DNA from: Bacteroidota bacterium
GTDB taxonomy: Bacteria; Bacteroidota; Bacteroidia; Chitinophagales; Chitinophagaceae
Length of the DNA: 32,369 nucleotides
Assembly: GCA_018267545.1 (NCBI GenBank)
Contig: JAFDYG010000220.1
Span: 1-32,369, forward strand
Reading direction: 5' to 3'
Shown: positions 10,658 through 29,551 of the stretch, piece by piece
Position numbering within the stretch: the first letter of the stretch is position 1
Layout of the letters: the number at the start of each line of letters is the position of its first letter
Notes under the pieces: generated by a model
Databases searched by the model: none
The model's input: the letters and a program-made list of their open reading frames with translations, nothing else
Told to the model about the DNA's origin: nothing
Translations under genes and position numbers: made by a program

Positions 10658-10689
10658 TTTGGCTTATTTGGGTTTGGCCGTTAATTTTG
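10658..10689 (+). promoter_or_regulatory. Histidine operon promoter
   Basis: TTTG (10658-10661), a 20-nt spacer, then TAATTTTG (10682-10689), an exact TAnnTTTG -7 box. The leader-peptide ATG follows 9 nt later, so the transcript would start only a few bases before it. Layout and sequence closely match the promoter before the Trp leader at 18190-18221. Confidence 0.65.
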
Positions 10690-10698
10690 GTCTCGCAA

Positions 10699-10820: not shown

Positions 10821-10835
10821 ATTAAATATTGAGCT

Positions 10836-11693: not shown

Positions 11694-11694
11694 G

Positions 11695-12978: not shown

Positions 12979-12982
12979 TTTT

Positions 12983-14029
12983 ATGTTCGACTTAGAGAAG
13001 CTTTTAAGGGACAATATTCGGCAGCTGGTGCCTTATTCATCGGCCAGGGATGAATTCAAAGGAGAGGCGCAGGTTTTTTTAGACGCCAATGAGAACAGCC
13101 TGGGTTCACCGCTGACCAAGTGGTACAATCGCTACCCGGACCCTCATCAGTGGAAGGTCAAGGAAGCAATCAGCAAGATCAAGGGAGTACCGCCCCAGCA
13201 CATTTTCCTGGGGAATGGGAGCGATGAATGTATCGATCTTTTGTTTCGGGCCTTTTGTGTACCGGGTAAGGACAATGTCATCATCAACCCGCCTACCTAT
13301 GGAATGTACGAGGTAAGCGCGCATATCAATGACATAGAAATACGCCGTGCGACGCTGCTCGACGATTTTCAGCTGGACCTCGTTCACCTGGAGAACCTGG
13401 TGGATGAGAATACGAAGATCATCTGGATTTGTTCGCCCAATAATCCGACGGCCAACTCGATGAACCGGCAGGATGTCGAGATAGTCCTGAATAACTTTCC
13501 GGGGCTGGTGGTCGTAGACGAAGCCTATATCAACTTCTCCCGTCATAAGTCCTTTATCCAGGAGCTGAGCGACTATCCCAACCTGGTGGTCCTGCAGACG
13601 ATGAGCAAGGCCTGGGGGCTGGCGGGGCTGCGGATGGGTATGGCCTTTGCGAGCGAAGCTATTATTAAAATTTATAATAAGGTGAAACCTCCCTATAACA
13701 TCAGCCAGGTTAATCAGGAGCTGGCATTGAAGGCGCTGGAGGAGGTAGATCAGGTCAATGATATGATACGGCAGCTGGTGGGCATGCGGGAGGCGCTGGC
13801 CAGGGAGCTGGCGGCTTTGCCGATAGTGCGGGTGGTGTATCCGAGCGATGCTAATTTCCTGCTGGTGAAGATGGATAATGCGAGGGGTGTATATGAAGAT
13901 TTATTAAAAGATGGGATTGTAGTGCGGGATCGGAGCAAGGTGGAGCTTTGCGAGGGATGTCTGCGGATAACGGTAGGTACGGAAAAGGAGAATATGGAGC
14001 TGCTGGAGGCGCTGGCCAGCCTAAGGTAA
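12983..14029 (+). CDS. hisC: Histidinol-phosphate aminotransferase
   Basis: 348 residues; start 4 bp after hisD. A fold-type I PLP aminotransferase that converts imidazole-acetol phosphate to histidinol phosphate. Visible: DANENSLGSP near the N-terminus, the LGNGSDECIDLL segment that holds the cofactor phosphate, CSPNNPTANSM (about 150-160), VVVDEAYINF (about 176-185), and the Schiff-base lysine K209 in MSKAWGLAGLRMG. It ends the first contiguous his block; 66 bp separate it from the sugar dehydrogenase. Confidence 0.96.
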   Translation: MFDLEKLLRDNIRQLVPYSSARDEFKGEAQVFLDANENSLGSPLTKWYNRYPDPHQWKVKEAISKIKGVPPQHIFLGNGSDECIDLLFRAFCVPGKDNVIINPPTYGMYEVSAHINDIEIRRATLLDDFQLDLVHLENLVDENTKIIWICSPNNPTANSMNRQDVEIVLNNFPGLVVVDEAYINFSRHKSFIQELSDYPNLVVLQTMSKAWGLAGLRMGMAFASEAIIKIYNKVKPPYNISQVNQELALKALEEVDQVNDMIRQLVGMREALARELAALPIVRVVYPSDANFLLVKMDNARGVYEDLLKDGIVVRDRSKVELCEGCLRITVGTEKENMELLEALASLR

Positions 14030-14095
14030 AAATTAGTAAAGGGTTGGGGATTTTTCATTTAAATTACGCTCTGTTAATCTGTTAACTCATCTACC

Positions 14096-15418: not shown

Positions 15419-15425
15419 TAAAGTG

Positions 15426-15890
15426 ATGAAAAAAAGAAATTTAGTTTTTACAGTAGCCAGTAGCTTATTACTGGCTACTGTGCTTATGTCGCAAACGAAG
15501 AAGCCAGCCGCTCCGGCAAAGACGGCCGGCGCTACTGCGTCCGGCGGTGCGTCTGCTTCGATCACGCGTGGAAAGCAGGTGTATCTCGAGCAGTGTCTGG
15601 CCTGTCATCAGGTGGATGGGGCGGGTGTGCAGGGAATGAACCCGCCGCTGGTCAAGACGAAGTTTGTGCTGGGGGATAAGAATACGCTGGTCAAGATCGT
15701 CCTGAATGGCATGCAGGGTGTCGAGGTGGAAGGCGAGGAGTATCATGGCGTGATGGCGCCGCATTCCGATCTCACCGATGCGCAGATTGCGGATGTGCTG
15801 ACGTATGTCCGGAACAGCTTTGGGAATAAGGCCAAGGCGGTTACGGCGGCGGAAGTAAAGGCGATTCGAGCAAAGAATAAACCGGCGTAA
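15426..15890 (+). CDS. Secreted monohaem cytochrome c
   Basis: 154 residues from the ATG at 15426, 7 bp after the dehydrogenase stop; an in-frame upstream start overlaps that gene and is rejected. Signal peptide (about 1-23), an Ala/Lys/Pro-rich linker (24-46), then a class I cytochrome c domain. Haem attachment CLACH at residues 57-61, the likely axial Met110 in [13 protein letters not shown], and the closing helix [14 protein letters not shown]. It is probably the electron acceptor of the adjacent dehydrogenase. The gene ends 20 bp before hisB. Confidence 0.93.
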
Positions 15891-15895
15891 TAGCG

Positions 15896-15903
15896 TACAT
15901 TTG
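15896..15903 (+). promoter_or_regulatory. Candidate -7 box before hisB
   Basis: TACATTTG matches TAnnTTTG exactly and lies 7 nt before the hisB ATG. No TTG is visible about 20 nt upstream, so it may be a weak internal promoter or chance. Confidence 0.35.
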
Positions 15904-15910
15904 CGGTTCA

Positions 15911-17050
15911 ATGAAACGCATCTTATTTATAGACAGGGATGGCACCCTGATCAAGGAAGCCCCGCCAACTTACCAGATCGATAGTTTCGAGAAGCTGGAG
16001 TTTTATCCGGATATGTTCGAGTACATGAGCAGGATCGCTCGTGAATTCGACTATGAGCTGCTCATGGTGACGAACCAGGATGGGCTGGGTACAGAGTCGT
16101 TTCCGGAGGATACGTTCTGGCCGGTTCAGAATTTTATCGTTCGAACTTTGGAAGGCGAAGGGGTCCGGTTTAGCGGTGTTTATATCGACAACTCTTTCCC
16201 CGAGCAGAAGCTGCCTCCGCGCAAGCCGGGCACGGGGATGCTGACGAAATATATCGACAACGAGGAATATGACCTGGAGCATTCGTTTGTGATCGGAGAC
16301 CGGATTACTGACGTACAGCTGGCGAAGAACCTGGGATGCAAGGCGATCTGGCTGAACAATGAGCCGGGGTTAGGAGGCGCCGAGGTCAGCGATTCGCAGC
16401 GGGAGCTGACGGAAACGGTGGCGCTGGAGACAACGGAGTGGAGCAAGATCTATGAATTTCTGAAGCTGGGATTGCGCAGGGTGGTGCATGAGCGGAATAC
16501 GAACGAGACGCAGATCAAGATCGATTTGAATATCGACGGCAGCGGGAAGGCTGGCATCATTACGGGCCTGGGCTTCTTCGATCATATGCTGGAGCAGATT
16601 GCCAGACACGGAAAGATGAACCTGTCCATCCGGGTCAATGGAGACCTGCACATCGACGAGCACCATACCATCGAAGATACGGGGATTGCGCTGGGTGAAG
16701 CGTTTGCGCAGGCCCTGGCGGACAAGCGCGGTATGGAGCGATATGGTTTCGCCCTGCCGATGGATGAGGCGGATGCGAAAGTGCTGATCGATTTTGGCGG
16801 GAGGAATTGGATTGTGTGGAATGCGGAGTTTAAGCGGGAGCGGATTGGAGAAGTGCCGACGGAGATGTTTTTTCACTTTTTTAAATCGTTTTCGGATGGC
16901 GCTCGTTGTAATTTGAATGTGGAGTGTAAAGGAGAGAATGAGCATCATAAAATAGAAGCCATCTTCAAGGCTTTTGCAAAGGCGATACGGATGGCGGTAC
17001 GGAGGGACCCGTTGAGCAATTATCTGCCGAGCACGAAGGGTGTTTTGTAG
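15911..17050 (+). CDS. hisB: Bifunctional histidinol-phosphatase / imidazoleglycerol-phosphate dehydratase
   Basis: 379 residues. The N-terminal HAD phosphatase domain (about 1-165) has the nucleophile motif DRDGT (8-12), VTNQDG (53-58) and the RKPGTGML stretch. The C-terminal IGPD domain (about 187-379) has FFDHML (222-227), [10 protein letters not shown] (249-258) and [16 protein letters not shown] (343-358), with the C-terminal LPSTKGVL. It catalyses steps six and eight of histidine synthesis. The cysteine cluster that binds zinc in the E. coli phosphatase domain is missing: the matching loop (about 91-110) has no Cys. It is separated from hisC by the dehydrogenase and cytochrome genes. 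Confidence 0.97.
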
Positions 17051-17082
17051 GGTCTGCGTAGGGGCTGCGCGGGCGGCGTGCT

Positions 17083-18171
17083 TTAGACCCGGAAGAAGAT
17101 CTTCTTCCGGTACAGGAAATAGCATAATCCCCATTCACAGGCGAAGATGACGAGGGAGGCGATGATGGGTGCGAGACCCAGCCCGCCGGTAATGGCAGCA
17201 ACGTAGCCGTTGAGCCAGTGTTCTCCTATAAATCCAAAGAACAGATAGATAAAGATCGAATTCATCCCGACGATGGTGAAAAACTCCAGGTGACGGCGAT
17301 GACCTTTGCTATCGATCCACCAATAGCAGGCGGCCAGGACCCATAAGCTATAGCCGAGCGATACGAGCGTAAAAGAGGTGGTAGCGATCCTTTTGATGAT
17401 CGGCGTAACATTGAAAAGATCGAGGGCATAGCCAAGAACAAAGGCGATCAATCCTCCTATTAAGAATGTGCGGATGGGATGGGTTTTACTCAGCAATACC
17501 TTGCCTGCCAGCGCGCCGCCGATCGTATGTACGGCGGTAGGAATGCAATTGATGGCGACCCATCCACCCTTGTTGATCTTGTGCATCAAGATCCAGTCTA
17601 CATAATTGCCGAAGTTGTGCTGGTCGACGAAGGGCTGGTCGAAGCCCGGAATATTCGTCCCGCGGTACAAGATCTCCGTTATGATCAGCAGGCCTGCGCA
17701 AACGGCTATCTGTGCCGGGACAGACCACTGAAAGATCAGGAAGGCGATCAGCGTTGTGAAGGAAAGCTGGGTCAATACATTCCAGAGCTCGAACGATAGG
17801 CCGCTTCGTTTGACGGCATAGAGCAGCACCCCCCAGAAGAAGAGCCATGCGCATCTTTTTAAAACTTTTTGGAAGCGTTTATTCCAGGTCATTCCTTTTT
17901 CCTGTTGTTTTTGCAGGGAAAGAGCCATGGCGACGCCGGCCATGAACATAAATGCCGGCTGGACGAGGTCCCAGAGACGGAGGCCGTGCCAGGGATGATG
18001 GAAAAATTGCTGTGTCAGCGGGTAGAAGACGCCGCCTTCCGCGTTTTCCGACAGGTGTTCGTAGAGACCGGTGGATTCGAGAGTGAGGAGGATCATGATC
18101 AGGCCCCGCATGAAGTCGAGGGAGAGGAGGCGCTGGGGGGCAGTGGTGTTTGGCATGGCGGTGTCTGGCAT
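17083..18171 (-). CDS. Multi-pass membrane acyltransferase (DUF5009/HGSNAT-like)
   Basis: 362 residues, about ten membrane segments. The opening LLSLDFMRGLIMILLTLEST and the early HPWHGLRLWDLVQPAFMFMAGVAMALSL are hallmarks of the bacterial relatives of heparan-alpha-glucosaminide N-acetyltransferase (DUF5009). These proteins probably transfer acetyl groups across the membrane to sugars. The start may be Met1 (18171) or Met6. The gene is convergent with hisB and diverges from the Trp leader, so it separates the two amino-acid blocks. Its last codons form a 22-bp perfect palindrome. Confidence 0.88.
   Translation of the reverse strand: MPDTAMPNTTAPQRLLSLDFMRGLIMILLTLESTGLYEHLSENAEGGVFYPLTQQFFHHPWHGLRLWDLVQPAFMFMAGVAMALSLQKQQEKGMTWNKRFQKVLKRCAWLFFWGVLLYAVKRSGLSFELWNVLTQLSFTTLIAFLIFQWSVPAQIAVCAGLLIITEILYRGTNIPGFDQPFVDQHNFGNYVDWILMHKINKGGWVAINCIPTAVHTIGGALAGKVLLSKTHPIRTFLIGGLIAFVLGYALDLFNVTPIIKRIATTSFTLVSLGYSLWVLAACYWWIDSKGHRRHLEFFTIVGMNSIFIYLFFGFIGEHWLNGYVAAITGGLGLAPIIASLVIFACEWGLCYFLYRKKIFFRV
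17089..17110. repeat. 22-bp perfect palindrome at gene end
   Basis: The half-site CCGGAAGAAGA is followed directly by its reverse complement TCTTCTTCCGG. It encodes the RKKIFFR end of the acyltransferase and sits near the convergent hisB stop. No T-run follows on either strand. Confidence 0.6.
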
Positions 18172-18189
18172 ACTTTAAATATAAAAAAA

Positions 18190-18221
18190 TTTGGCGGTTT
18201 GGGTTTTCCCGTAGATATTTG
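18190..18221 (+). promoter_or_regulatory. Tryptophan operon promoter
   Basis: TTTG (18190-18193), a 20-nt spacer, then GATATTTG (18214-18221), one base off TAnnTTTG. The leader ATG follows after 7 nt. The sequence parallels the histidine promoter, sharing AAATTTGGC, TTTGGGTTT and CAATGAAACAA-like stretches. Confidence 0.6.
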
Positions 18222-18228
18222 CCAAGCA

Positions 18229-18288
18229 ATGAAACAAGTAATTAATCAACAGTGGTGGTGGCATACGAACTCCAAACGGGGCAAGTAA
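18229..18288 (+). CDS. trpL: Tryptophan operon leader peptide
   Basis: Nineteen codons reading MKQVINQQWWWHTNSKRGK, with three consecutive TGG codons at 18253-18261, ending in TAA. An intrinsic terminator follows 32 nt later, before trpE, so this is an attenuation leader that senses charged tRNA-Trp. Like hisL it begins MKQ and has no Shine-Dalgarno. Confidence 0.93.
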   Translation: MKQVINQQWWWHTNSKRGK

Positions 18289-18350
18289 GGCTATTATCAT
18301 AGTTGTTACAACCATATTGGGGCCCCGATTTTCGGGGCCTTTTTCTTTTT
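18277..18350 (+). promoter_or_regulatory. Tryptophan attenuator (antiterminator/terminator switch)
   Basis: The leader's CGGGGC (18277-18282, in the Arg17-Gly18 codons) can pair with GCCCCG (18322-18327), the 5' arm of the terminator. Stalling at the Trp codons leaves it free, giving read-through; a ribosome at the stop codon 18286 covers it, and the terminator forms. A small hairpin GTTG/CAAC (18302-18305, 18309-18312) lies between. All pairings were found by eye. Confidence 0.8.
18321..18350 (+). terminator. Intrinsic terminator of the tryptophan leader
   Basis: GGCCCCGA (18321-18328) and TCGGGGCC (18332-18339) form a perfect 8-bp stem with a TTT loop, followed by TTTTTCTTTTT. Confidence 0.92.
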
Positions 18351-18357
18351 AAGCCTT

Positions 18358-18456
18358 AAGCCGCCACGGGCGGCTTGTCCGAAGGACAGACATTAGCGTT
18401 TTGCTGGAGATGCGCTAATTTTTGTGGAAGTGCATCTCCAGCACATTTTAAGCCGC
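18358..18456 (+). promoter_or_regulatory. Structured leader region between Trp terminator and trpE
   Basis: Three perfect hairpins lie in tandem: AAGCCGCC/GGCGGCTT (18358-18365, 18369-18376), TGTCC/GGACA (18376-18380, 18384-18388), and TGCTGGAGATGC/GCATCTCCAGCA (18402-18413, 18432-18443). Alternatives exist: ATTAGCG (18392-18398) with CGCTAAT (18413-18419) followed by T residues, and GCGGCTT (18370-18376) with AAGCCGC (18450-18456), 9 nt before trpE. No such region exists in the his leader. Function unknown. Confidence 0.55.
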
Positions 18457-18465
18457 TCATGCGCC

Positions 18466-19884
18466 ATGAAAAAAATAGAAATCAAGACGAATTGTAAAAA
18501 GCTGTTATCGGACATCTACACGCCGGTAGGCATCTATCTACGGCTCCGGGACCGGTTCCGGGATACGGTCCTGCTGGAAAGCACGGACTATCACGCAGCC
18601 GAGAACAGCTACTCCTTTATCTGTATCAATGCGATCGCCGGCATGGAAATCACCGATACGAAAAGTATCGAGTTCAAGCTGCCAGGGCAGAAGCCGGAGC
18701 GGGTGCCTCTTAAGAATCTGTCGGACACGCCGAAGCTGCTTTGGGAATTTATGCAGCGGTTCGACATAGAGGCGGCGGCGGAGCGGCCGGTTCGCGCGAC
18801 GCAGGGGCTGTTTGGATATACGACCTTCGACGCGGTGCAATTTTTCGATACGATCAAGCTGAAGGAGCGTGGGACGGCGATACCGCTGATGCGGTACCGG
18901 TTGTACCAGTACGTGCTGGCGATCAATCACTTTAAAGATGAGCTATACATCTGTGAGAATAAGATCAGCGGTATAGAATCGGAGCTGCCGGTGGTGGAAT
19001 CGCTGATCCGGAGCAAGGATGTGCCGGTCTATCCTTTCCAGACAGTAGGAGAGGAGACGTCGAACCTGACGGACGAGCAGTACCGGCAGATCGTGAAGCA
19101 GGGGATTGCCAGCTGTCTGCGGGGGGACGTTTTTCAGATCGTATTGAGCCGGCGTTTTCAGCAGGGTTTTAGAGGGGATGAATTCAACGTCTACCGGGCA
19201 TTGCGGAACATCAATCCTTCGCCCTATCTCTTCTTCTTCGACTATGGCGATTATAAATTGATGGGGTCTTCGCCGGAGTCGCAGATCATCCTGCAGAATG
19301 GCGAGGCGATCGTACATCCCATCGCGGGCACGTTCAAGCGGAGCGGGGATGAGGCGACGGACCGGCAGATGGCGGACAAACTATTAAAAGACGCCAAGGA
19401 AAATGCGGAGCACGTCATGCTGGTCGACCTGGCGCGGAACGACCTGAGCCGGAACTGTGACGATGTAAACGTGGCGCACTACAGACAAGTGCAATATTAC
19501 TCCCACGTCATTCACCTGGTGAGTGAAGTCCGGGGTAAGCTGAGGGCGGGGCACAATCCGTTCGAGCTGCTGGCTACGACTTTCCCGGCGGGGACGTTGA
19601 GCGGGGCGCCGAAGTTCAAGGCGATGGAGCTGATCGATTCTTATGAGCCTACGGCGAGGAGCTACTACGGAGGCTGTATCGGCAGCATCGGATTCGACGG
19701 GAGCTGCAACCATGCCATCATGATCCGCAGCCTGCTGAGCCAGAACAATACCCTGACCTACCAGGCCGGCGCCGGTGTAGTAGCGGCGAGTCAGCCGGAA
19801 AGCGAATTACAGGAAGTGAATAATAAATTGGGTGCGCTGAAGTCGGCTATTCTTTATGCGGCGCAAATCATTGAATCAAAATAA
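18466..19884 (+). CDS. trpE: Anthranilate synthase component I
   Basis: 472 residues from the ATG at 18466; an in-frame GTG at 18424 lies within the hairpin region and is rejected. It converts chorismate plus ammonia (from TrpG) to anthranilate. The tryptophan-binding LLES motif is at residues 36-39, so feedback inhibition is expected. The chorismate-binding domain has FQIVLSRRFQ, HPIAGTFKRSGDE, LVDLARNDLSRNC, TFPAGTLSGAPKFKAMELID and SYYGGCIGSIGFDGSCNHAI. Length is normal. It is first in trpEGDCFBA, under the leader attenuator, 9 bp before trpG. Confidence 0.97.
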   Translation: MKKIEIKTNCKKLLSDIYTPVGIYLRLRDRFRDTVLLESTDYHAAENSYSFICINAIAGMEITDTKSIEFKLPGQKPERVPLKNLSDTPKLLWEFMQRFDIEAAAERPVRATQGLFGYTTFDAVQFFDTIKLKERGTAIPLMRYRLYQYVLAINHFKDELYICENKISGIESELPVVESLIRSKDVPVYPFQTVGEETSNLTDEQYRQIVKQGIASCLRGDVFQIVLSRRFQQGFRGDEFNVYRALRNINPSPYLFFFDYGDYKLMGSSPESQIILQNGEAIVHPIAGTFKRSGDEATDRQMADKLLKDAKENAEHVMLVDLARNDLSRNCDDVNVAHYRQVQYYSHVIHLVSEVRGKLRAGHNPFELLATTFPAGTLSGAPKFKAMELIDSYEPTARSYYGGCIGSIGFDGSCNHAIMIRSLLSQNNTLTYQAGAGVVAASQPESELQEVNNKLGALKSAILYAAQIIESK

Positions 19885-19893
19885 ACGATCGCG

Positions 19894-20460
19894 ATGCGTA
19901 TTCTTGTTTTTGACAATTACGACTCTTTTACTTATAACCTGGTACACCTGGTCGAGAAGCTGTTGCAGCAAAAAGTCGAGGTTCATCGCAATGACCGTAT
20001 TCCTCTTGAAAAGGTAAAAGACTATGATAAGATCATTCTTTCACCGGGGCCAGGGGTTCCTTCCGAGGCGGGGCTGTTATTGCCATTGATTCGCGAGTAT
20101 GCGGCTTCGAAGCCGATCCTGGGGGTTTGCCTGGGACATCAGGCGATTGGAGAGGCGTTTGGCGGGAAGCTGGTTAATCTAAGCACTGTTTATCATGGCG
20201 TGGCGACGCCGGTGAAAATTTTAAAGCCGGGGGCTTTGTTCGAGGGATTACCTGAGACGTTGGAAGTGGGGAGGTATCATAGCTGGGTAGTGAGTGAGGA
20301 AGGTTGGCCGGACGAGCTGGAAATAACGGCGCGGGATGAAAAGGGATTTGTAATGGGGCTGCGGCATAAAAGCCTGGACGTGCAGGGAGTTCAATTCCAC
20401 CCCGAGAGTGTATTGACGCCGATGGGAGAGAAGATATTGGCTAACTGGTTAAAACAATAA
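19894..20460 (+). CDS. trpG: Anthranilate synthase component II (glutamine amidotransferase)
   Basis: 188 residues. A class I glutamine amidotransferase: NYDSFTYNLVH at the N-terminus, LSPGPGVPSEAG (49-60), nucleophile Cys79 in GVCLGHQAIGEAFGG, and the His169/Glu171 pair in VQFHPESVLT. It supplies ammonia to TrpE. It stands as a separate gene, not fused to trpD, with a 1-bp gap to trpD. Confidence 0.96.
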   Translation: MRILVFDNYDSFTYNLVHLVEKLLQQKVEVHRNDRIPLEKVKDYDKIILSPGPGVPSEAGLLLPLIREYAASKPILGVCLGHQAIGEAFGGKLVNLSTVYHGVATPVKILKPGALFEGLPETLEVGRYHSWVVSEEGWPDELEITARDEKGFVMGLRHKSLDVQGVQFHPESVLTPMGEKILANWLKQ

Positions 20461-20461
20461 C

Positions 20462-21454
20462 ATGAAGAAGATATTACAATACTTATTCGAGCATAAGACC
20501 TTTGGCCGGGAACAGGCCAGGGATGTGCTGGTCCGCATTGCCCGCGGGGAATTCAACGAGAGCGAGCTGGCGGCATTTATCACGGTCTTTCTGATGCGCA
20601 GCGTTACGATCGATGAGCTGCAGGGGTTCCGGGATGCGTTGCTGGAACTTTGTGTGCGGGTCGATCTTGACGGACAGGAGACGATCGATATCGTCGGTAC
20701 GGGCGGAGACGGCAAGAATACTTTCAATATCTCGACCCTGGCTTGCTTTATCGTTGCGGGGGCGGGCCATAAGGTGACCAAGCATGGAAACTATGGGGCG
20801 AGCTCGATCAGCGGGGCTTCCAACGTCATGGAACAGCTGGGATACCGGCACAAGAATGACCCGGGTCAGCTGCGCAGGGAGATCGAACAGGCGGGTATCT
20901 GCTTTTTGCATGCGCCCTTGTTTCATCCGGCGTTGAAGGCGGTAGGGCCGATCCGGAAGAACCTGGGGGTGCGTACTTTCTTCAATATGCTGGGGCCGAT
21001 GGTCAATCCGGCCTTTCCGTCGACGCAGCTGGTCGGGGTGTATAACCTGGAGATGGCGCGGATCTACAACTACCTTTTGCAGCAGATAGAGGGGAAATTC
21101 ACCATCATCCACAGCCTGGACGGTTACGACGAGATTTCGCTGACGGGGGATACGAAGGTGATTACCAATAAGGGGGAAAAGATTATGACGCCGGAAGAAT
21201 TAGGGAAGAGAATGGTAAATGCTACCGATATTTATGGTGGCAATACCGTGGAGGAAGCGGCAAAGATCTTCACCCGAATCCTGAAGGTAGAGGGCAGCTG
21301 GGCGCAGAATGCCGTTGTGCTGGCGAATGCGGCGATGGCCTTACATGCAAGCGGCGGATTTGCGGACTATAATGCGGCGTATGGGGCGGCGGTGGAGAGC
21401 CTGGAAAGTGGGAAGGCCTATGGAGCGCTGGAAAAATTAATAGCATTACAATGA
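20462..21454 (+). CDS. trpD: Anthranilate phosphoribosyltransferase
   Basis: 330 residues. It joins anthranilate with PRPP. The glycine-rich PRPP-binding motif GTGGDGKNTFNIS is at 79-91, with KHGNYGASS (107-115) and the GVRTFFNMLGPMVNPA stretch that marks the anthranilate site. It starts 1 bp after trpG and overlaps trpC by 4 bp (ATGA), so translation is coupled. Confidence 0.97.
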   Translation: MKKILQYLFEHKTFGREQARDVLVRIARGEFNESELAAFITVFLMRSVTIDELQGFRDALLELCVRVDLDGQETIDIVGTGGDGKNTFNISTLACFIVAGAGHKVTKHGNYGASSISGASNVMEQLGYRHKNDPGQLRREIEQAGICFLHAPLFHPALKAVGPIRKNLGVRTFFNMLGPMVNPAFPSTQLVGVYNLEMARIYNYLLQQIEGKFTIIHSLDGYDEISLTGDTKVITNKGEKIMTPEELGKRMVNATDIYGGNTVEEAAKIFTRILKVEGSWAQNAVVLANAAMALHASGGFADYNAAYGAAVESLESGKAYGALEKLIALQ

Positions 21455-22236
21455 ATATCTTAGAAAGAATCGTCGAGCATAAGAAGAAAGAAGTGGCCGA
21501 AAGGAAGGAGCTAAGACCGGTAGCGGTATTGGAAAAAGAAGCGTTTTTTACGAGGGAGGTGCTGTCGCTTCAGCAATTTTTGACCGACCCTGCGAGGACG
21601 GGTATCATTGCCGAATTCAAGCGGCGCAGTCCTTCGAAGGGAATCATCAATGACCAGGTGAAGGTAGAGGCTGTGACGAAGGGATATGCGGCGGCGGGAG
21701 CCAGCTGTCTTTCGGTCTTGACGGACGAGCAATTTTTCGGAGGCACCAGCGAAGATTTGCGGCAAGCCCGGGTGAATGAGATTCCGATCCTGCGGAAAGA
21801 CTTTATGATCGATGAATACCAGATTGTGGAGGCCAGGGCTATCGGGGCGGATGTCATTTTATTGATTGCGGCCTGCCTTACTCCTTCCGAAGTGCGCCGG
21901 CTGGCCCGGTTTGCGGGCTCTCTGGGTTTGGAGGTGCTTTTGGAAATACATAATGAAGAAGAGCTGGAGCATATTTGTGAGGAGACGCCGATTGTGGGCG
22001 TCAATAATCGGGACCTGAAAACTTTTACGGTTGATGTGGAACGCTCGATTCGGCTGAGCAAGCAAATCCCATCGGGAAAGCTGCTGGTGGCGGAGAGCGG
22101 CATCAACGAAGTTGCTACGATACTACATATGAAAAAGGCTGGATTCCAGGGCTTCCTGGTAGGAGAACATTTTATGAAGGAAAAAGACCCAGGCGCTGCG
22201 TTTGGGGCCTTTGTCCGGGAATTATCGGGAAATTAA
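21451..22236 (+). CDS. trpC: Indole-3-glycerol-phosphate synthase
   Basis: 261 residues, TIM barrel. Visible: IIAEFKRRSPSKGIIND with the catalytic lysine region, CLSVLTDEQFFGGTSEDL, ILRKDFMIDEYQIVEARAIG, LEVLLEIHNEEEL, VGVNNRDLKTFTVD and LVAESGIN. It closes the indole ring from CdRP. It is separate from TrpF, unlike the fused E. coli form, and lies 6 bp before trpF. Confidence 0.97.
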   Translation: MNILERIVEHKKKEVAERKELRPVAVLEKEAFFTREVLSLQQFLTDPARTGIIAEFKRRSPSKGIINDQVKVEAVTKGYAAAGASCLSVLTDEQFFGGTSEDLRQARVNEIPILRKDFMIDEYQIVEARAIGADVILLIAACLTPSEVRRLARFAGSLGLEVLLEIHNEEELEHICEETPIVGVNNRDLKTFTVDVERSIRLSKQIPSGKLLVAESGINEVATILHMKKAGFQGFLVGEHFMKEKDPGAAFGAFVRELSGN

Positions 22237-22242
22237 AAACAT

Positions 22243-22887
22243 ATGAGAGTAAAAGTATGCGGCATGACCGAGCTCGACCAGGTCAAACAATTGGACGCCA
22301 TGGGTGCGGACTTTGCGGGCTTTATCTTCTATCCGAAGTCTCCCCGTTATGTGGTGCGTCACCTGGCGGGTGAACAATTGAAGAAAGCGAAGCTTCGGCT
22401 GGGGAAGGTCGGCGTATTTGTCAACGCGACCTATGACGAGGTGATGAAGCAGGTCGATGCCTATGGGCTGGACATGGTGCAGCTCCATGGGGATGAGACG
22501 CCGAGGTTCTGCGAACAGCTCTCCAACTATATCACGGTTATCAAAGTATTTCGGATGGGTGAAAACGATCCCATCGACTGGCTGATCCGGCCTTACCAGG
22601 ACTTTTGCGATATGTTTTTGTTCGATACCGAGGGCGTGGGTTATGGCGGCACGGGGAAGAAGTTCAACTGGGATACGCTAAAGCCTTCTCATATCGATAA
22701 GCTGTATTTTTTGAGCGGGGGTATCGAGCTGTCGGATGCAGACAGGTTGAAGGCTTTTTCGAAGGAGCCGGTAGCCCGCAAGCTCTTTGCGATCGACGTC
22801 AATAGTAAATTCGAGACGAGTCCGGGGGTAAAGGACCTGAAGAAAGTCAGGGCTTTGCTGGATTCGGTAAAATCTCCCAATGCGTAA
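22243..22887 (+). CDS. trpF: Phosphoribosylanthranilate isomerase
   Basis: 214 residues, TIM barrel. Catalytic Cys6 in [12 protein letters not shown], the [12 protein letters not shown] segment, VQLHGDET, and the catalytic Asp in [20 protein letters not shown]. It performs an Amadori rearrangement like that of HisA, which is encoded about 2.6 kb downstream in the same apparent operon. It precedes trpB by 11 bp. Confidence 0.96.
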
Positions 22888-22898
22888 ATAAAAAATTT

Positions 22899-24095
22899 AT
22901 GGCGACTTATCAATCCCCGGACGAGCGGGGCTATTATGGAAAATTCGGCGGGGCTTTTATCCCCGAGATGCTATATCCCAATGTGGAAGAATTGCGCACA
23001 AGGTACCTGGAGATCATGCACGAGGCGTCTTTCCAGAAGGAATTTCAAGGTTTGCTGAAGGACTATGTGGGGCGGCCTTCGCCGTTGTACCTGGCGAAGC
23101 GGCTCAGCGCAAAGTACAATACCGAGATCTTTTTGAAAAGAGAAGATTTGAATCACACGGGTGCGCACAAGATCAACAATACGATCGGTCAGATTCTGCT
23201 GGCGCAGCGTTTAGGCAAGCGAAGGATCATCGCCGAGACAGGAGCTGGTCAGCATGGTGTGGCGACGGCGACCGTCTGCGCCTTGAAAGGGATCGAGTGC
23301 ATCGTATATATGGGGGAGAAGGATATCGAGCGGCAGGCGCCGAACGTGGCCCGGATGAAGATGCTGGGCGCCAAGGTGGTGCCGGCTACGAGCGGCAGCA
23401 AGACGCTAAAGGATGCTACCAACGAAGCGATCCGGGACTGGATCAACAACCCGGTGGACACGCATTATATTATCGGGAGTGTGGTGGGACCGCACCCTTA
23501 TCCGGATATGGTGGCCAGGTTTCAGAGCGTAATCAGCGAAGAGATTCGTCAGCAGCTAAAGGAAAAGACGGGCAGCGAGCTGCCAACCCACGTGATCGCC
23601 TGTGTCGGCGGCGGCAGCAATGCGGCCGGGACTTTTTATCACTTTCTGGACGAAGGAGAAGTAGAGCTGATCGCGGTCGAAGCGGCGGGACATGGCGTGC
23701 ACAGCGGGCATAGCGCCGCCACCACGCAGCTGGGCAAGCCCGGTGTGCTGCATGGAAGCCGCAGCTATGTGATGCAGACCGAGGATGGGCAGGTGGTGGA
23801 GCCGCATAGCATCTCTGCCGGCCTGGACTATCCGGGGATCGGACCCTTGCACGCGCATTTGTTCGACAGCGGGAGAGGGACGTTTTTGAGCGCAACCGAT
23901 GATGAGGCTGTTGCGGCTGCTTTCCAGCTGACTCGCCTGGAGGGGATCATTCCGGCTTTGGAATCTGCACATGCTTTGGTCGCGTTGGACCAGCTGGAGC
24001 TAAACGAGAAAGATACGGTCGTGCTTTGTTTGAGCGGAAGGGGGGACAAGGATATGGCTACTTATATGAAGGCGATGGAGGAACAAACTTTTTAA
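22899..24095 (+). CDS. trpB: Tryptophan synthase beta chain
   Basis: 398 residues. PLP enzyme that joins indole and serine. The Schiff-base lysine is K91 in HTGAHKINN; the phosphate-binding loop is [24 protein letters not shown] at the N-terminus and [13 protein letters not shown] are typical of the standard TrpB1 class. The trpA ATG lies 2 bp after the stop, fitting the need for equal alpha and beta subunits. Confidence 0.97.
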
Positions 24096-24097
24096 TC

Positions 24098-24868
24098 ATG
24101 AGCAGAATAGCTGAACTTTTTAAACAAAAGAATAAGCGGGTATTGAATGTCTATTGTACGGCCGGTTTTCCCAAGCTGGACAGCACGATGGAAGTATTGA
24201 AGGCCTTGCAGGAGAGCGGAGCGGATCTGATCGAGCTGGGGATGCCTTATAGCGACCCGCTGGCGGATGGGCCTGTGATCCAGGCCAGCAGCACCAGGGC
24301 GCTGGAGAATGGGATGACGATGTCGACGTTGTTCAAGCAATTGAAGGAGCTGCGTCCGGCGGTGAAGACACCGGTGCTGCTGATGGGATATATGAACCCG
24401 GTGCTGCAATATGGTTTCGAGCGGTTTTGTGAATCGGCGGCTGGGGTTGGTGTGGATGGATTGATTTTGCCCGATCTGCCGATTTACGAATTCGAGACGG
24501 AGTATGGTCCCGTGATGCGGCGGTATGGATTGGATTTTGTGTTTTTGGTGACGCCGGAGACTTCGGAGGAGCGCGTGCGCAGGGTGGACGCGTTGAGCAC
24601 AGGCTTTTTGTATGCGGTATCTTCTTCTTCGACGACGGGTAAAGACACGAATATGAGCAATCAGCAGGGGTATTTCGAACGTCTGGAGAAGATGAACCTG
24701 CGCAACCCGGTGCTGGTAGGTTTTGGTATCCGGGACAAGGCTAGCTTCGATGTGGCTTGTCAGCATGCCAATGGCGCGATTATCGGGACGGCCTATATTA
24801 AGGCGCTGGAGAATGGGAAGCCGGTAGCTGCTGCGACAAAGGAATTTTTGGATGGGGTTTTAAAATAG
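24098..24868 (+). CDS. trpA: Tryptophan synthase alpha chain
   Basis: 256 residues from the ATG at 24098; the longer frame into trpB is rejected. It cleaves indole-glycerol phosphate. Catalytic Glu46 and Asp57 are seen in LIELGMPYSDPLADGPVIQ; LLMGYMNPVLQYG and GVDGLILPDLPIYE follow, then FGIRDKASF near the end. Only 4 bp separate it from hisH, so the trp block runs directly into his genes. Confidence 0.97.
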   Translation: MSRIAELFKQKNKRVLNVYCTAGFPKLDSTMEVLKALQESGADLIELGMPYSDPLADGPVIQASSTRALENGMTMSTLFKQLKELRPAVKTPVLLMGYMNPVLQYGFERFCESAAGVGVDGLILPDLPIYEFETEYGPVMRRYGLDFVFLVTPETSEERVRRVDALSTGFLYAVSSSSTTGKDTNMSNQQGYFERLEKMNLRNPVLVGFGIRDKASFDVACQHANGAIIGTAYIKALENGKPVAAATKEFLDGVLK

Positions 24869-24872
24869 GAAT

Positions 24873-25484
24873 ATGGGACTGGCAATCGTAAAATATAATG
24901 CAGGAAATATACAATCGGTTCTGTATGCGCTGGAGCGTATTGGGCGGCAGGCGGTGGTGACGGATGACCCGGCGGTCTTGCGTTCGGCCGATAAGGTGAT
25001 CTTTCCCGGGGTTGGGGAGGCTAGCACGGCGATGGAGTATTTGAGGGCTCGCGGACTGGACGAGCTGATTGTGGGCCTGAAGCAGCCGGTGCTGGGGATT
25101 TGTCTGGGGATGCAATTGATGTGCAGCTATAGTGAAGAGAATGATACGTCGTGTTTGGGGATATTCGAGACTTCTGTTCGGAAATTCGATGGGAGAGGGG
25201 CGGAAGTAGGCGTGGGGGCGGGGTTGAAGGTGCCGCAGATCGGCTGGAATAATGTGTTCGACCTTCGGTCGAAGCTGTTTGATGGAGTACCGGAGAATAG
25301 CTATTGTTATTTTGTGCATGGGTATTATGCGGCATTGAGTGAGGATACGATCGGGAAGACCAAGTATGGACTGACGTATAGTTCGGCGCTGCACAAGGGG
25401 AATTTTTACGGTGTGCAGTTTCATCCTGAGAAGTCGGCCCAGGTTGGGGAGAGGATACTGCAGAATTTTATCGATGGGGTATAG
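24873..25484 (+). CDS. hisH: Imidazole glycerol phosphate synthase, glutaminase subunit
   Basis: 203 residues. Nucleophile Cys77 in GICLGMQLM and the His184/Glu186 pair in VQFHPEKSAQ. NAGNIQSVLYAL and FPGVGEASTAM are typical of HisH rather than TrpG. It supplies ammonia to HisF. It starts 4 bp after trpA, so it is probably transcribed from the trp promoter. A 47-bp gap with an 18-bp palindrome separates it from hisA. Confidence 0.96.
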   Translation: MGLAIVKYNAGNIQSVLYALERIGRQAVVTDDPAVLRSADKVIFPGVGEASTAMEYLRARGLDELIVGLKQPVLGICLGMQLMCSYSEENDTSCLGIFETSVRKFDGRGAEVGVGAGLKVPQIGWNNVFDLRSKLFDGVPENSYCYFVHGYYAALSEDTIGKTKYGLTYSSALHKGNFYGVQFHPEKSAQVGERILQNFIDGV

Positions 25485-25505
25485 TAGTGTTTTTGGAAAA
25501 AAATG

Positions 25506-25523
25506 AATTTGTATATACAAATT
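25506..25523. promoter_or_regulatory. 18-bp perfect palindrome upstream of hisA
   Basis: AATTTGTATATACAAATT is its own reverse complement. It sits in the 47-bp hisH-hisA gap, 8 bp before the hisA ATG, the widest gap within the trpE-hisIE run. A regulator binding site is possible; nothing identifies the protein. Confidence 0.5.
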
Positions 25524-25531
25524 GGATTTGC

Positions 25532-26254
25532 ATGAAAATGGAAGTTATTCCGGCCATAGACATCATAGACGGAAAGTGTGTCAGGCTCACGCAGGGTGAT
25601 TATTCGCAGAAGAAAATTTATAATGAAAACCCGCTGGAAGTGGCGATGGAGTTCGAGGACGCGGGGTTGAAGAGGCTGCACCTGGTGGACCTGGATGGGG
25701 CGAAGGCAGGCGCGGTGAAAAACTGGAAGGTGTTAGAGGTGCTGGCGGCGAAGACGAAAATGGTGATCGACTTTGGCGGGGGAATCAAGACCGCAAAGGA
25801 CGTGGAGATCGTTTTTAATTCGGGCGCGGTGCTGGCAACGGTGGGCAGCATAGCGGTGAAGGACGGTGCGCTGTTTGTGAGCTGGTTGGAATCCTATGGT
25901 GCGGACCGGTTTTTATTGGGGGCGGATGTAAAAAACGAAAAGATTGCGGTGGGGGGATGGCTGGAGACGACGGACCGCTGGGTTTATGATTTTATACAGG
26001 AGTATATCGGGAAGGGCGTGCGGCAGGTATTCTGTACGGATGTGAGCAAGGATGGGCTGCTGCAGGGACCTGCGCTCGATTTATACAAGAATATCGTTGG
26101 GAAATTCCCTGACCTGCACTTTATCGCCAGCGGCGGTGTAAGCGGGATGGATGACGTGCTGAAGCTGGAAGAAGCGGGCTGTAAGGGAGTTATTATCGGT
26201 AAAGCGATCTACGAAGGACGCGTGACACTACAAGAACTATCGAAACTATGCTGA
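25532..26254 (+). CDS. hisA: ProFAR isomerase (5'-ProFAR to PRFAR)
   Basis: 240 residues from the ATG at 25532 ([14 protein letters not shown]); Met3 is an alternative, and the longer in-frame start would include the palindrome. The half-barrel repeats of the family are visible: [36 protein letters not shown], and the second-half [15 protein letters not shown] and [12 protein letters not shown]. Catalytic Asp is in PAIDIIDG (residue 10) and the second in FCTDVSKDG. It overlaps hisF by 7 bp. Confidence 0.96.
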
Positions 26255-27006
26255 CAAAACGAATCATACCTTGTTTGGATATCAAGGATGGCCGAACGGT
26301 CAAGGGGGTCAACTTCGAGAATATCCGGGATGCGGGCGACCCGGTGGAGCTTGGGGCGCTGTATGCGCAGCAGGGAGCGGATGAATTGGTGTTCCTGGAT
26401 ATTACGGCGACCAATGAGAAGCGTAAGACGTTGCGGGAGCTGGTGAATCGTATTGCGCATCATATCAATATTCCGTTTACGGTGGGCGGGGGGATCAGCA
26501 GCGTCGAGGACGTCAGCCTGCTGTTACAAAATGGAGCCGATAAGATCTCGGTAAATACGTCGGCCTTCAAGCGACCCGAGCTGATCTCGGAGCTGGCGAA
26601 GGAATTCGGCAGCCAGTGTGTGGTGCTTGCGATCGACACGAAGCAGGAAGAGGATGGACAGTGGTATGTATATCTGAATGGCGGGAGGGTAAAGACGGAC
26701 CGTCTTTGTATGAATTGGGCAAGAGAGGGAGTCGACCGGGGGGCGGGAGAGATTCTGCTGACCTCGATGAACAATGATGGAACGAAAAAGGGATTTGCCC
26801 TGGATATAACCAAAGAACTGGCAGGTTCTTTGAGCGTACCGGTCATAGCTTCCGGCGGGGGTGGAACCAAAGAGCACTTTGTCGACGTGTTGGGAGCCGG
26901 GAAGGCAGATGCGGCGCTTGCGGCCAGCATCTTCCATTTTAAGGAAATCGGAATCCCGGAGTTAAAAGAATATTTACAGGAGCATAATATAACTGTTAGA
27001 CTATGA
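26248..27006 (+). CDS. hisF: Imidazole glycerol phosphate synthase, cyclase subunit
   Basis: 252 residues, TIM barrel. Catalytic Asp11 in [16 protein letters not shown] and the second Asp in [21 protein letters not shown] and [15 protein letters not shown] are the phosphate-binding loops. It works with HisH. It overlaps hisA by 7 bp and hisIE by 4 bp. Confidence 0.97.
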
Positions 27007-27611
27007 GTCAATTGTCAGTCAATTTTCAGAAATCGCCGGATGGGCTTGTGCCGGCCATCATACAGGACTCGGACACTTGTAAGGTGCTGATGCTGGGATA
27101 TATGAATAAAGAGGCCCTGGAGCAGACGCAAAAGGAGGGCAAGGTTACTTTCTTCAGCCGGAGCAAGCAGCGGCTCTGGACCAAGGGGGAGGAGAGCGGG
27201 AATTTTCTGCTGGTGAAAGACATTGCGGTCGATTGTGACAACGATACGCTGCTGATCAAGGCCGAGCCGCTGGGACCGGTTTGTCATACGGGAGCCGATA
27301 CCTGCTGGGAGGAAAAGAACCACCGGGAGGATTTTCTAGCCGTCCTGGAAGAGACGATTGCGGAGCGCCGGCTGGAAGCCGACCCGGACAAGTCCTATGT
27401 AGCCAGTCTTTTTAACAAGGGAATCAATAAGATAGCTCAGAAAGTCGGAGAGGAAGCCGTGGAGCTGGTTATCGAGGCCAAGGATCATGATGACAAGCTG
27501 TTCTTGAGTGAGGCGGCAGACCTTTTGTTCCATTATTTAATCCTTCTTAACGCAAAAGGGTATAACTTACAGGACGTAACCAATGTGTTGCGTGAAAGAC
27601 ATAAAAAATAA
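27003..27611 (+). CDS. hisI: Bifunctional PR-AMP cyclohydrolase / PR-ATP pyrophosphatase
   Basis: 202 residues, the fused HisIE form. The HisI part (about 1-100) has [31 protein letters not shown], the metal-binding DCDNDTLL, and [10 protein letters not shown]. The HisE part (about 112-202) has [38 protein letters not shown] and [13 protein letters not shown]. It performs steps two and three. It completes the gene set: hisGDC, B, H, A, F and IE are all present in the window. Confidence 0.96.
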
Positions 27612-27618
27612 CGATTAT

Positions 27619-28719
27619 ATGAAGTTGCTTTTTGGTGTATTGCTGGCGCTGCCTGTATTTGGAATGGCGCAGGTCGGTGGAGGTGGTAATGGATTCACCA
27701 TTGCGGGAAATGTAAAAGGGGTGGCGGACAATTCGAAGATATTCTTAACGGATGCGTCCAATCCTACGGATACTCTGGCAGAGACGGTAGTAAAGGGAGG
27801 AGAGTTTAGTCTTAAAGGAAAGATTTCCGAGCCCAATCTGTACGAATTAAATTTCGGCGCTATCAAGAAGAAGGCTCCGTTGTTTATCGGAAGTGATAAG
27901 ATTACCATTACCGGTTCGACCGAGAACCTGAAGGAATTGAAGGTAACTGGTTCGCCTTCGCATGATGACTTCGTAGCCTTCCAGGAAATGTTCAATCCTT
28001 ATTTTGCGAGGATCAACGCGGTGATGACGGTGGCCAATTCGCCGGCGGGGGCTCCCAAGAGGGACTCTTTGTTTCGTGTGTATAAGGGTATTACGGATAC
28101 CATTTTCGTTGCCGTGGATCAATTCATCGAAAAGAGGAAGAGCTCCTATGTCTCGCCCTTTATCCTGGTGGTAGTGAATCAGCTGACTGAGGATGTAACG
28201 GCGCAGGATAAGCGTTTGCATTCGCTGTCGCCCGAAATACAAAAGGGGTATTATGCGCAATATTTGCAGAAGGTCGTCGACGAAGCCAAGATCGGCGCGA
28301 TAGGTACAGAGGCGATCGACTTTACGCAAAACGATACGTCCGGTCACGCGATAACCCTTTCGTCCTTCAAGGGTAAATACGTGCTGGTGGATTTTTGGGC
28401 CAGCTGGTGCGGGCCCTGCCGGATGGAGAATCCGAACGTGGTGAATACGTATCAAAAATTCAAGAGTAAGAACTTTACGGTCCTGGGTGTTTCGCTGGAT
28501 AAGTCGAAGGAACCCTGGATCAAGGCGATCAAGGATGATGGGCTGGCCTGGACGCAGGTGAGCGATTTGAAATACTGGTACAATGAGGCCGCGGCAAAAT
28601 ATCATATCCAAAGTATCCCGCAGAATTTGCTGGTCGACCCGAATGGGAAGATCGTAGGCAGGAATCTCCGGGGACCCGACCTGCAGGCAAAGCTGTGCGA
28701 ACTGCTTGGCTGCAATTAG
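27619..28719 (+). CDS. Exported TlpA/ResA-like thioredoxin with DUF4369 domain
   Basis: 366 residues from ATG 27619; the longer frame overlaps hisIE and is rejected. Signal peptide (about 1-18, LPVFGMAQ), an N-terminal DUF4369-type beta domain (about 25-112), a helical linker, then a thioredoxin-like domain (about 232-366) with the redox motif CGPC at 264-267 (DFWASWCGPCRMENPN) and the cis-Pro region SIPQNLLVD. It probably reduces or oxidises disulfides in the periplasm. It starts 7 bp after hisIE, so it may be read with the trp-his transcript, though it has no evident tie to that pathway. Confidence 0.92.
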   Translation: MKLLFGVLLALPVFGMAQVGGGGNGFTIAGNVKGVADNSKIFLTDASNPTDTLAETVVKGGEFSLKGKISEPNLYELNFGAIKKKAPLFIGSDKITITGSTENLKELKVTGSPSHDDFVAFQEMFNPYFARINAVMTVANSPAGAPKRDSLFRVYKGITDTIFVAVDQFIEKRKSSYVSPFILVVVNQLTEDVTAQDKRLHSLSPEIQKGYYAQYLQKVVDEAKIGAIGTEAIDFTQNDTSGHAITLSSFKGKYVLVDFWASWCGPCRMENPNVVNTYQKFKSKNFTVLGVSLDKSKEPWIKAIKDDGLAWTQVSDLKYWYNEAAAKYHIQSIPQNLLVDPNGKIVGRNLRGPDLQAKLCELLGCN

Positions 28720-28798
28720 GAAAAAGGATACCGCCGTCCGGAAGTTTCATTCCTTTTAGGGCATGTTTTCTGTTTATTTTGCTGGCAACAGCAATTCT

Positions 28799-29551
28799 AT
28801 GAAACAGAATATATACGTTCTTGCCTCTATCCTTTTTATTATTTCAGGCTGCAGACGGCATGTCGATCCTCCGGGCGGTGATCATGGGCCGACGCCGGAT
28901 TCAAAGCTCAGGCTAAATTCCACCAGTGAGTTTATGTATGTCTACGATAGCCAGGGCCGGCTATCCAAATCTCTTTATAGCAATAGCCTGCCGGCGGGGA
29001 TGGAGTATGTCTATACGGACAAAACGATTACGGGCAAGGATGTCGGTACGGATGGGAAGCCATACTTCGATCGTATCGTTTATACTCTCGGTAGCAATGG
29101 ACTGGCAGTAAGTGATAAGTATGTCCTGGGTGATAATTCGACTGCGCAGATAACAAATTATACCTATAACACCGACCGGCAATTGGTAGAAGAGATTGCC
29201 GGTGAAGAGGGGAAAGCGCCAGTCAGCCGGACGGTTTATTACTACAATAAAGGAAATAGGGACAGTCTTAAAACCTTTTCCCTTAAAGACGGCAAGCTAC
29301 TGACGTTTATACGGTTCGAGTACTATACGGATAAGCCTGCTGTATTGACCTACGAAAATAATGGCATCACCTACCTGGGCGCCAGCAATGCGAATCTGCT
29401 GAAAAAATACGTCCAGATCAATCCTGGCGATACAACGACTATGGATATTTCATACGTGCTGGACGCGCAAAACCGTCCTGTAAAGGGACATTTTGTCCAG
29501 AATGGACTTGCCCTTTCGGATGAAATCTATACATATATCGAACTGCCTTAG
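28799..29551 (+). CDS. Hypothetical lipoprotein
   Basis: 250 residues from ATG 28799. A lipoprotein signal ends at Cys18 (FIISGC). After a Pro/Gly-rich spacer the protein has repeated beta-strand turns of the type YVYDSQGRLSKSLYS, ITNYTYNTDRQLVEEI and SYVLDAQNRPVKGHF, resembling YD/RHS-like short repeats common in surface proteins of Bacteroidota. No enzyme motif is recognised. Its stop overlaps that of the convergent next gene by 3 bp (29549-29551 against 29548-29550). Confidence 0.82.
   Translation: MKQNIYVLASILFIISGCRRHVDPPGGDHGPTPDSKLRLNSTSEFMYVYDSQGRLSKSLYSNSLPAGMEYVYTDKTITGKDVGTDGKPYFDRIVYTLGSNGLAVSDKYVLGDNSTAQITNYTYNTDRQLVEEIAGEEGKAPVSRTVYYYNKGNRDSLKTFSLKDGKLLTFIRFEYYTDKPAVLTYENNGITYLGASNANLLKKYVQINPGDTTTMDISYVLDAQNRPVKGHFVQNGLALSDEIYTYIELP

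Follow-up and report, generated by a model that had tools for sequence, protein, structure and literature searches.

In the aromatic supraoperon of Bacillus subtilis, one his gene (hisC) is found behind the trp genes, and the control is protein-mediated (TRAP). In Thermoflavifilum thermophilum and Filimonas lacunae, trp genes interrupt the his operon, and one transcription unit was suggested for this arrangement in 2021, without expression data (PMC8305728). Here, the biosynthesis genes of tryptophan (Trp) and histidine (His) are analyzed in a DNA stretch of 32,369 nucleotides, referred to as the window, which is one entire contig (JAFDYG010000220.1, C134) of the 7.3 Mb genome GCA_018267545.1 of a Bacteroidota bacterium of the family Chitinophagaceae. 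In this window, trpEGDCFBA is followed by hisHAFIE, and the analysis of the window and of related genomes indicates that these genes are probably one transcription unit, attenuated by a Trp leader that precedes trpE.

Gene order at the trp–his junction

The gene identities obtained with the NCBIfam models, together with the coordinates, confirm the gene order of the initial annotation, including the 4-bp junction and the short gaps or overlaps that follow it. trpEGDCFBA and then hisHAFIE are read in one direction, with hisG, hisD, hisC and hisB upstream, and 4 bp separate the trpA stop (24868) from the hisH start (24873). The his genes, trpD, trpC, trpB and trpA score above a model cut-off, and trpE, trpG and trpF are best matches below the cut-offs. 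The widest gap inside hisHAFIE is the AT-rich stretch of 47 bp between hisH and hisA (when hisA is read from the ATG at 25532), whereas hisA overlaps with hisF and hisF overlaps with hisIE. The features of this region are:

18190-18221, forward strand: promoter-like site of the Trp leader, TTTG-N20-GATATTTG, 9 of 10 positions; the predicted transcription start is at about 18226, 3 nt before the leader ATG
18229-18288, forward strand: Trp leader peptide MKQVINQQWWWHTNSKRGK, with Trp codons at 18253-18261, a His codon at 18262-18264 and the antiterminator segment CGGGGC at 18277-18282
18289-18300, forward strand: post-stop element that may form a pause hairpin by pairing with the Trp-Trp codons and with the first His codon base
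18320-18350, forward strand: Trp attenuator terminator, a GC hairpin with arms 18321-18327 and 18333-18339, followed by a T-run
18466-24868, forward strand: trpE, trpG, trpD, trpC, trpF, trpB and trpA; 18424 and 18466 are both possible starts of trpE, and trpA is at 24098-24868
24873-25484, forward strand: hisH (TIGR01855, 198.7 bits, cut-off 105.4)
25532-26254, forward strand: hisA (TIGR00007, 234.8 bits, cut-off 228.95)
26248-27006, forward strand: hisF (TIGR00735, 357.6 bits, cut-off 294.55)
27003-27611, forward strand: hisIE (NF002747, 280.7 bits, cut-off 187)

Conservation of the junction in related genomes

The search of related genomes for the trpA–hisH junction, which had been proposed in the initial annotation, finds the same order and the same type of leader recurring across the family, beyond chance. 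Linkage of trpA and hisH is seen in 39 of 53 HisH-centred family loci, which were picked by us, not at random, from the matches listed in a HisH search of 195 family genomes; 14 of the 53 loci have hisGDCBHAFIE without trp genes. A TrpA search of 33 genomes of the same genus added 27 further loci having a match, 26 of them linked, and the 27th (L075) ends at a contig end. In the linked relatives, the gap between the alignment ends of trpA and hisH does not exceed 30 nt in 35 of the 65 loci and is within 100 nt in 58, with a maximum of 975 nt.

In the window, the his genes flank the trp genes in the order hisGDCB/hisHAFIE, as is characteristic for a trp-in-his nested operon. Such an operon also has very short spacers throughout, and this is observed at the trpA–hisH junction, but not between hisB and trpE, where the distance is 1.4 kb, including a reverse-strand gene. 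hisB is located upstream of trpE on the same strand in at least 35 of the 65 linked relatives (many loci end earlier), and in at least 13 of 65 it ends within 300 bp of trpE, so that transcripts from the His leader could read into trp in these genomes. A single block hisGDCB-trp-hisHAFIE is found in Chitinophaga sp. nbed36b11, C. vietnamensis and one metagenome-assembled genome (L260), the three loci being L260, L263 and L270. Pontibacter ruber has the same order, with approximately 4 kb between trpA and hisH.

A second large family of the same class, referred to as f16, was examined using trpE from 113 genomes, leaving out the partial match of G584; f16 genomes with trpE and hisF on separate contigs are scored as unlinked. 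In 39 of these 113 genomes, hisF is on the same strand, 8.4 to 21 kb downstream of trpE. Of five f16 loci that were inspected, four have a DAHP synthase-like and/or a hydroxylase-like gene in the insert between trpA and hisH, as confirmed by Pfam for G563. The f16 loci L371, L374, L359 and L360, having a DAHP synthase and/or a biopterin-dependent aromatic hydroxylase between trpA and hisH, present a larger aromatic–his cluster. Other variants of the gene order are seen in L143 and L282 (Fibrisoma limi), where trpA is followed by hisIE alone among the his genes that were sought, again with a WWWH leader, and in L022, L031, L036 and L264, where there is a tandem pair of trpF-like matches inside the trp operon.

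The Trp leader and its terminator and antiterminator

The Trp leader reads WWW-His and is therefore not codon-pure for Trp. The initial annotation described the sole attenuator upstream of these genes as Trp-sensing; the Trp leader, the hairpin and the T-run are indeed present, but the conserved His codon following the Trp run qualifies the description. The leader parser handled all but one of the family leaders, the exception being G172, which was read separately as WWH. A terminator between the leader and trpE is found in 67 of the 70 parsed family leaders. The 5' arm of the terminator pairs with a segment close to the end of the leader open reading frame (ORF); in the window, this segment is CGGGGC and lies one codon before the stop. 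The mean energy of this antiterminator pairing is -13.9 kcal/mol as compared with -7.5 kcal/mol for shuffled leaders, and the pairing is stronger in 63 of 67 leaders.

In an alignment of 52 leaders, the terminator shows two-sided changes in 33 cells, compared with 6.1 in shuffles (none of 500 reaches 33), and it is above the shuffles on the other measures too. For the antiterminator, such changes are seen in 14 cells as compared with 5.9 (5 of 500 shuffles reach 14). Covariation is clear for the terminator and moderate for the antiterminator.

When the ribosome footprint is taken as 12 nt ahead of the A site, the antiterminator segment stays free in at least 0.90 of the leaders for a modelled stall at a Trp codon or one or two codons further on, and in 0.21 for a stall one codon later still. 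Footprints of 9 and 15 nt shift the edge between free and covered by one codon in this model. A ribosome at the leader stop codon would cover the antiterminator segment. As in a ribosome-mediated trp attenuator, a leader ORF with tandem Trp codons precedes trpE, the terminator covaries and there is a competing antiterminator, the freeing of which is modelled. As judged from its sequence, the element is a compact attenuator, in which the antiterminator segment is inside the leader ORF.

Promoter-like sites before the leader and at the junction

Promoter-like sites were defined by the Bacteroidota consensus (-33 TTTG, -7 TAnnTTTG), with at least 9 of 10 scored positions matching. Between 9000 and 29000 of the window, there are seven such sites, as compared with 2.3 (standard deviation 1.5) in shuffles, one before each of the two leaders and five elsewhere. 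This consensus scan finds no promoter-like site in the window at trpA–hisH or hisH–hisA. The 64 linked loci with a gap of less than 300 nt (the window and 63 relatives) have no such site within 160 nt before hisH, and shuffled sequence has one; within 400 nt before trpE, such a site is found in 47 of 57 loci. The claim that there is no clear promoter between the trp genes and hisHAFIE is supported for this consensus: the absence of a site before hisH is complete among these loci, the gaps are short and the attenuator is conserved. These data support that hisHAFIE is transcribed together with trp.

Of the 70 family leaders, 60 have a -7 box (at least 5 of 6 positions, searched for in the final 26 nt), the end of which is 2 to 14 nt upstream of the leader ATG, the commonest distance being 7 nt (30 of 60). 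In both families taken together, the box is present upstream of 134 of 167 leaders, as compared with 47 in shuffles. In Flavobacterium psychrophilum, the promoter box has been mapped at -12 to -5 (PMC9723704). If the box has the same position here, the mRNA of the Trp leader is predicted to start approximately 3 nt before the ATG and would be nearly leaderless.

The upstream his genes and neighboring features

The initial annotation placed hisGDCB behind a His-sensing leader. The His leader and its terminator are present, as they are described below, but hisGDCB is not compact, as a dehydrogenase gene and a cytochrome c gene are located between hisC and hisB. The upstream features are:

10658-10689, forward strand: promoter-like site of the His leader, TTTG-N20-TAATTTTG, 10 of 10 positions, the sole 10-of-10 site in 9000-29000
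10699-10752, forward strand: His leader peptide MKQNRQHHHHHFYLPRG; a His leader is also present in 17 of 17 relatives of which the region upstream of hisG was scanned
10790-10820, forward strand: His attenuator terminator, a hairpin at 10790-10810 and then a T-run, read by eye
10836-11693, forward strand: hisG (NCBIfam)
about 11695-12978, forward strand: hisD (NCBIfam)
12983-14029, forward strand: hisC (NCBIfam)
14096-15890, between hisC and hisB: a gene of the GSDH type (glucose/sorbosone dehydrogenase) and a cytochrome c gene
15911-17050, forward strand: hisB (NCBIfam)
17083-18171, reverse strand: NagX-like gene (NCBIfam, below cut-off), separating hisB from the Trp leader

Because of this reverse-strand gene, transcripts from the His leader cannot simply continue into trp in the window. 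Dehydrogenase matches just 5' of hisB recur in relatives, for example in L014, L030, L049 and L064. At the other end of the cluster, a thioredoxin/AhpC-TSA-like gene (27619-28719) begins 7 nt past hisIE, leaving no space for a terminator, and it may share the transcript; the gap after hisIE is similarly short in L057 and amounts to hundreds of bases in other relatives. The hisH–hisA gap has a 10-codon ORF at 25503-25535, whose stop overlaps the hisA ATG and which spans a perfect 18-bp palindrome (25506-25523). An operator at this palindrome is an uncertain candidate: the inner 14-mer occurs at five places in the genome (control 0), but the three other sites that were read are all in or at long ORFs.

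Proposed mechanism

A Bacteroidota-type promoter located just a few bases upstream of the Trp leader ATG is proposed to drive transcription. With charged Trp-tRNA in good supply, the ribosome would translate up to the leader stop codon and cover CGGGGC, such that GGCCCCG and CGGGGCC form the terminator. When the ribosome is stalled in the Trp run or at one of the next two codons, CGGGGC would pair with GGCCCCG, and transcription would continue through trp into hisHAFIE. The proposed history is that a hisGDCBHAFIE operon took up a trp operon, together with its attenuator, at the position between hisB and hisH.

The initial annotation held that half of the His pathway is read when Trp is scarce. 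The shared transcription with trp agrees with this, whereas an answer to Trp alone is less clear, because the conserved His codon is located where stalling is predicted to prevent termination. The feedback control of the His pathway acts on HisG. A higher level of HisH, HisA, HisF and HisIE under Trp shortage should be nearly harmless, as HisG, under its own His leader, would gate the flux. How HisHAFIE rises under a shortage of His only has three possible answers. Read-through at the basal level may suffice; transcripts from the His leader may run through trp where hisGDCB adjoins, which is not obvious for the window; or the Trp leader may sense His via its conserved codon.

The conserved His codon after the Trp run

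In the family, the residue after the Trp run is His in 54 of the 56 linked leaders that were parsed and in 7 of 14 unlinked leaders (Fisher p = 8e-5, without a tree). With ten more genomes, these numbers become 57 of 59 and 12 of 21 (p = 5e-5), and when G107 and G149, which are possibly cut by contig ends, are omitted, the unlinked count is 10 of 19 (p = 2e-5). In f16, His is present in 24 of 34 linked and 40 of 63 unlinked leaders (p = 0.51). For two linked f16 genomes, the parser took the wrong ORF (G518) or missed the leader (G549); both were read separately with His, giving 26 of 35 linked leaders (p = 0.37). With f16 genomes having both genes on the same contig only, the counts are 24 of 34 and 12 of 23 (p = 0.18). 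Elsewhere in the class, His is found in 2 of 2 linked and 7 of 27 unlinked leaders (p = 0.09). The parser gave no leader for five linked and three unlinked f16 genomes and for 6 of the 35 loci elsewhere in the class. At other leader positions, His is rare, except for the residue before the Trp run in the family (0.16).

In a TrpE tree with 178 leaders (33 others were excluded, as TrpE was short or a leader was lacking), the fit is improved when His is made dependent on linkage (p = 0.0017), the full dependent model has p = 0.011, and the model in which linkage depends on His has p = 0.07. However, 6 of 10 control positions also have p < 0.05, so that the signal is not specific. The residue profile and this tree retain the parser's reading of G518 and G549. 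By parsimony, His is the older state, with approximately 25 losses and 1.5 gains. A linkage-specific His codon, which at first appeared strong in the family, was therefore dropped, given the f16 result and the significant control positions.

Alternative explanations

Several observations weigh against considering trpEGDCFBA-hisHAFIE as one Trp-attenuated unit. The promoter scan is limited to one consensus, and two 9-of-10 sites are located within trpC (21579 and 21910). The percentage of paired antiterminator positions, 79.1, is reached by 163 of 500 shuffles and its covariation score by 77 of 500, so neither is above the shuffles. When the antiterminator is slid one or two columns upstream, there are more two-sided cells (19 and 25, respectively), with far fewer pairs, and the antiterminator and terminator helices share one arm. 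The covariation alignment covers 52 of 71 family leaders, 11 having been excluded by name (most of them of a divergent form) and 8 more not having been passed on. Families of Trp and His leaders are included in Rfam, yet no Rfam match is found in the window; the Trp leader would work like the known Trp and His leaders but is not a member of an Rfam family. In f16, the trpA–hisH interval is 0.8 to 3.2 kb in 19 of 20 linked loci checked and 254 nt in one, which makes co-transcription less certain in that family. It is conceivable that an internal promoter, in trpC-trpA or before hisA, accounts for most transcription of hisHAFIE, such that the Trp leader hardly matters. The two sites in trpC and the AT-rich hisH–hisA gap agree with such a promoter, but the lack of any site just before hisH in all 64 linked loci does not (the gaps after hisH were scanned in the window only), nor do the five sites that, besides the two leader sites, are present in 20 kb, as compared with 2.3 in shuffles, and this explanation is considered to be improbable. 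As argued in the initial annotation, joint control might make sense, since both pathways use PRPP, glutamine amidotransferases (TrpG, HisH) and similar isomerases (TrpF, HisA), but the junction may also have arisen merely through insertion of one operon into the other. In that case, the junction would be a frozen accident without gain from shared control, which is compatible with co-transcription and is a serious possibility, although not the expected one. The plain hisGDCBHAFIE operon in 14 of the 53 family loci is consistent with an accident, as are the other genes in these clusters (the dehydrogenase and cytochrome genes in the window, and DAHP synthase and the biopterin-dependent hydroxylase in f16), whereas the retention of the tight junction across many genera of the family is not what an accident predicts.

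The unit attenuated by the Trp leader could also be open to a second signal, when the His codon lets a shortage of His-tRNA block termination as well, so that hisHAFIE follows either amino acid. This is compatible with Trp attenuation of the whole unit and is regarded as rather unlikely. It is suggested by the His codon of the parsed linked family leaders (54 of 56) and by the His in 64 of 97 f16 leaders, in which the top residue of every other non-Trp position is at 0.42 or less. Both His codons are in use, a modelled stall on the His codon with a footprint of 9, 12 or 15 nt frees the antiterminator in 0.97, 0.97 and 0.91, respectively, of 67 family leaders, and the tree model with His depending on linkage is preferred. 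However, His is also present in the unlinked leaders mentioned above (7 of 14 in the family and 40 of 63 in f16), the tree test is unspecific and His is ancestral by parsimony. In addition, the sensitivity drops with the fraction of regulatory codons, as described in part of the literature on trp attenuators (PMC1183508), no reciprocal Trp run is found in the His leaders of 17 relatives and the window, and genomes with hisF elsewhere disagree (Gln in G116 and G018, His in G067, G083 and G160). A two-amino-acid switch in the Trp leaders of Chitinophagaceae and f16, in which the conserved His codon, placed where the stalling zone ends, keeps HisHAFIE connected to the His signal, is put forward as a doubtful proposal. 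The His codon could instead be kept for RNA pairing, where its CA and the Trp codons pair with a TGCTAT-like post-stop element, probably as a pause hairpin that keeps the polymerase and the ribosome in step. This is a tentative explanation, with a somewhat better standing. The pairing is stronger than in shuffles in 62 of 70 family leaders, the CA is paired in 53 of 70, and in the aligned leaders, the pair at the C of the codon holds in 48 of 52 and that at the A in 41 of 51. In 61 family leaders with His, the leader's own His codon is ranked for this pairing at a mean percentile of 0.79 of the 61 codons, and CAA, retaining CA, is present in 4 of 9 family leaders without His. On the other hand, only one-sided changes are seen, the paired percentage of 89.3 equals the shuffled mean and a slide of -3 gives 88.4, and the pairing is hardly weakened when partners are exchanged between genomes. 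The best duplex of the window leaves out the A of the His codon, so C and A are not both paired, and in f16 the rank is 0.70, with CA pairs in 43 of 97 leaders. CA would also permit Gln, yet His is found 61 times and Gln 4 times in the family, and 64 and 4 times, respectively, in f16; this argument is qualified by the parsimony counts of 17.5 changes between the two His codons and 7.2 changes from His to Gln. A strict RNA-only reason for the His codon is supported just in part, and sensing of His, RNA structure or both could account for its retention.

Comparison with known systems

The trp–his junction appears to be a widespread natural case in which the attenuator of one pathway governs half of another pathway, and the cost and benefit of such cross-pathway control can be measured. 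The conserved WWWH leader provides a simple test of whether one attenuator senses two unrelated amino acids. The almost leaderless leader peptides raise the question how attenuation starts in a phylum that is reported to be without Shine-Dalgarno sequences. In the open-licence literature, no paper was found on the leader or its control at the trp–his junction.

The gene order itself is not new (PMC8305728). Like the window, T. thermophilum and F. lacunae have the trp genes between his genes, with short spacers and a suggested single operon, but the section of that paper on these operons concerns two genomes and has no leader, promoter or attenuation analysis, and the window differs by the reverse-strand gene between hisGDCB and trp. 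What is new is the absence of a Bacteroidota-type promoter site just before hisH versus its presence before trpE in most loci, the covariation of the terminator and antiterminator and the leader that is not purely Trp-coded.

With the B. subtilis supraoperon, the likeness is a his gene transcribed behind trp genes; there it is hisC under TRAP control, and here hisH, hisA, hisF and hisIE are behind a leader that is predicted to be ribosome-mediated. F. psychrophilum, of the same phylum, has the TAnnTTTG promoter box and leader attenuation before amino-acid operons, but the part of that work on these features mentions no trp–his junction, and leaderless mRNAs amount to just 5.5 percent there (PMC9723704). 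With the ribosome-mediated trp attenuators of enterobacteria, as far as these are covered in the relevant part of PMC1183508, the leader ORF with tandem Trp codons and the mutually exclusive antiterminator and terminator are shared. Here, the antiterminator segment is inside the leader ORF, just before the stop, and the mRNA is predicted to be almost leaderless; furthermore, a conserved His follows Trp, there is no Rfam match and hisHAFIE would also be read. Apparently, a ribosome-mediated trp attenuator has been extended over half of the his operon.

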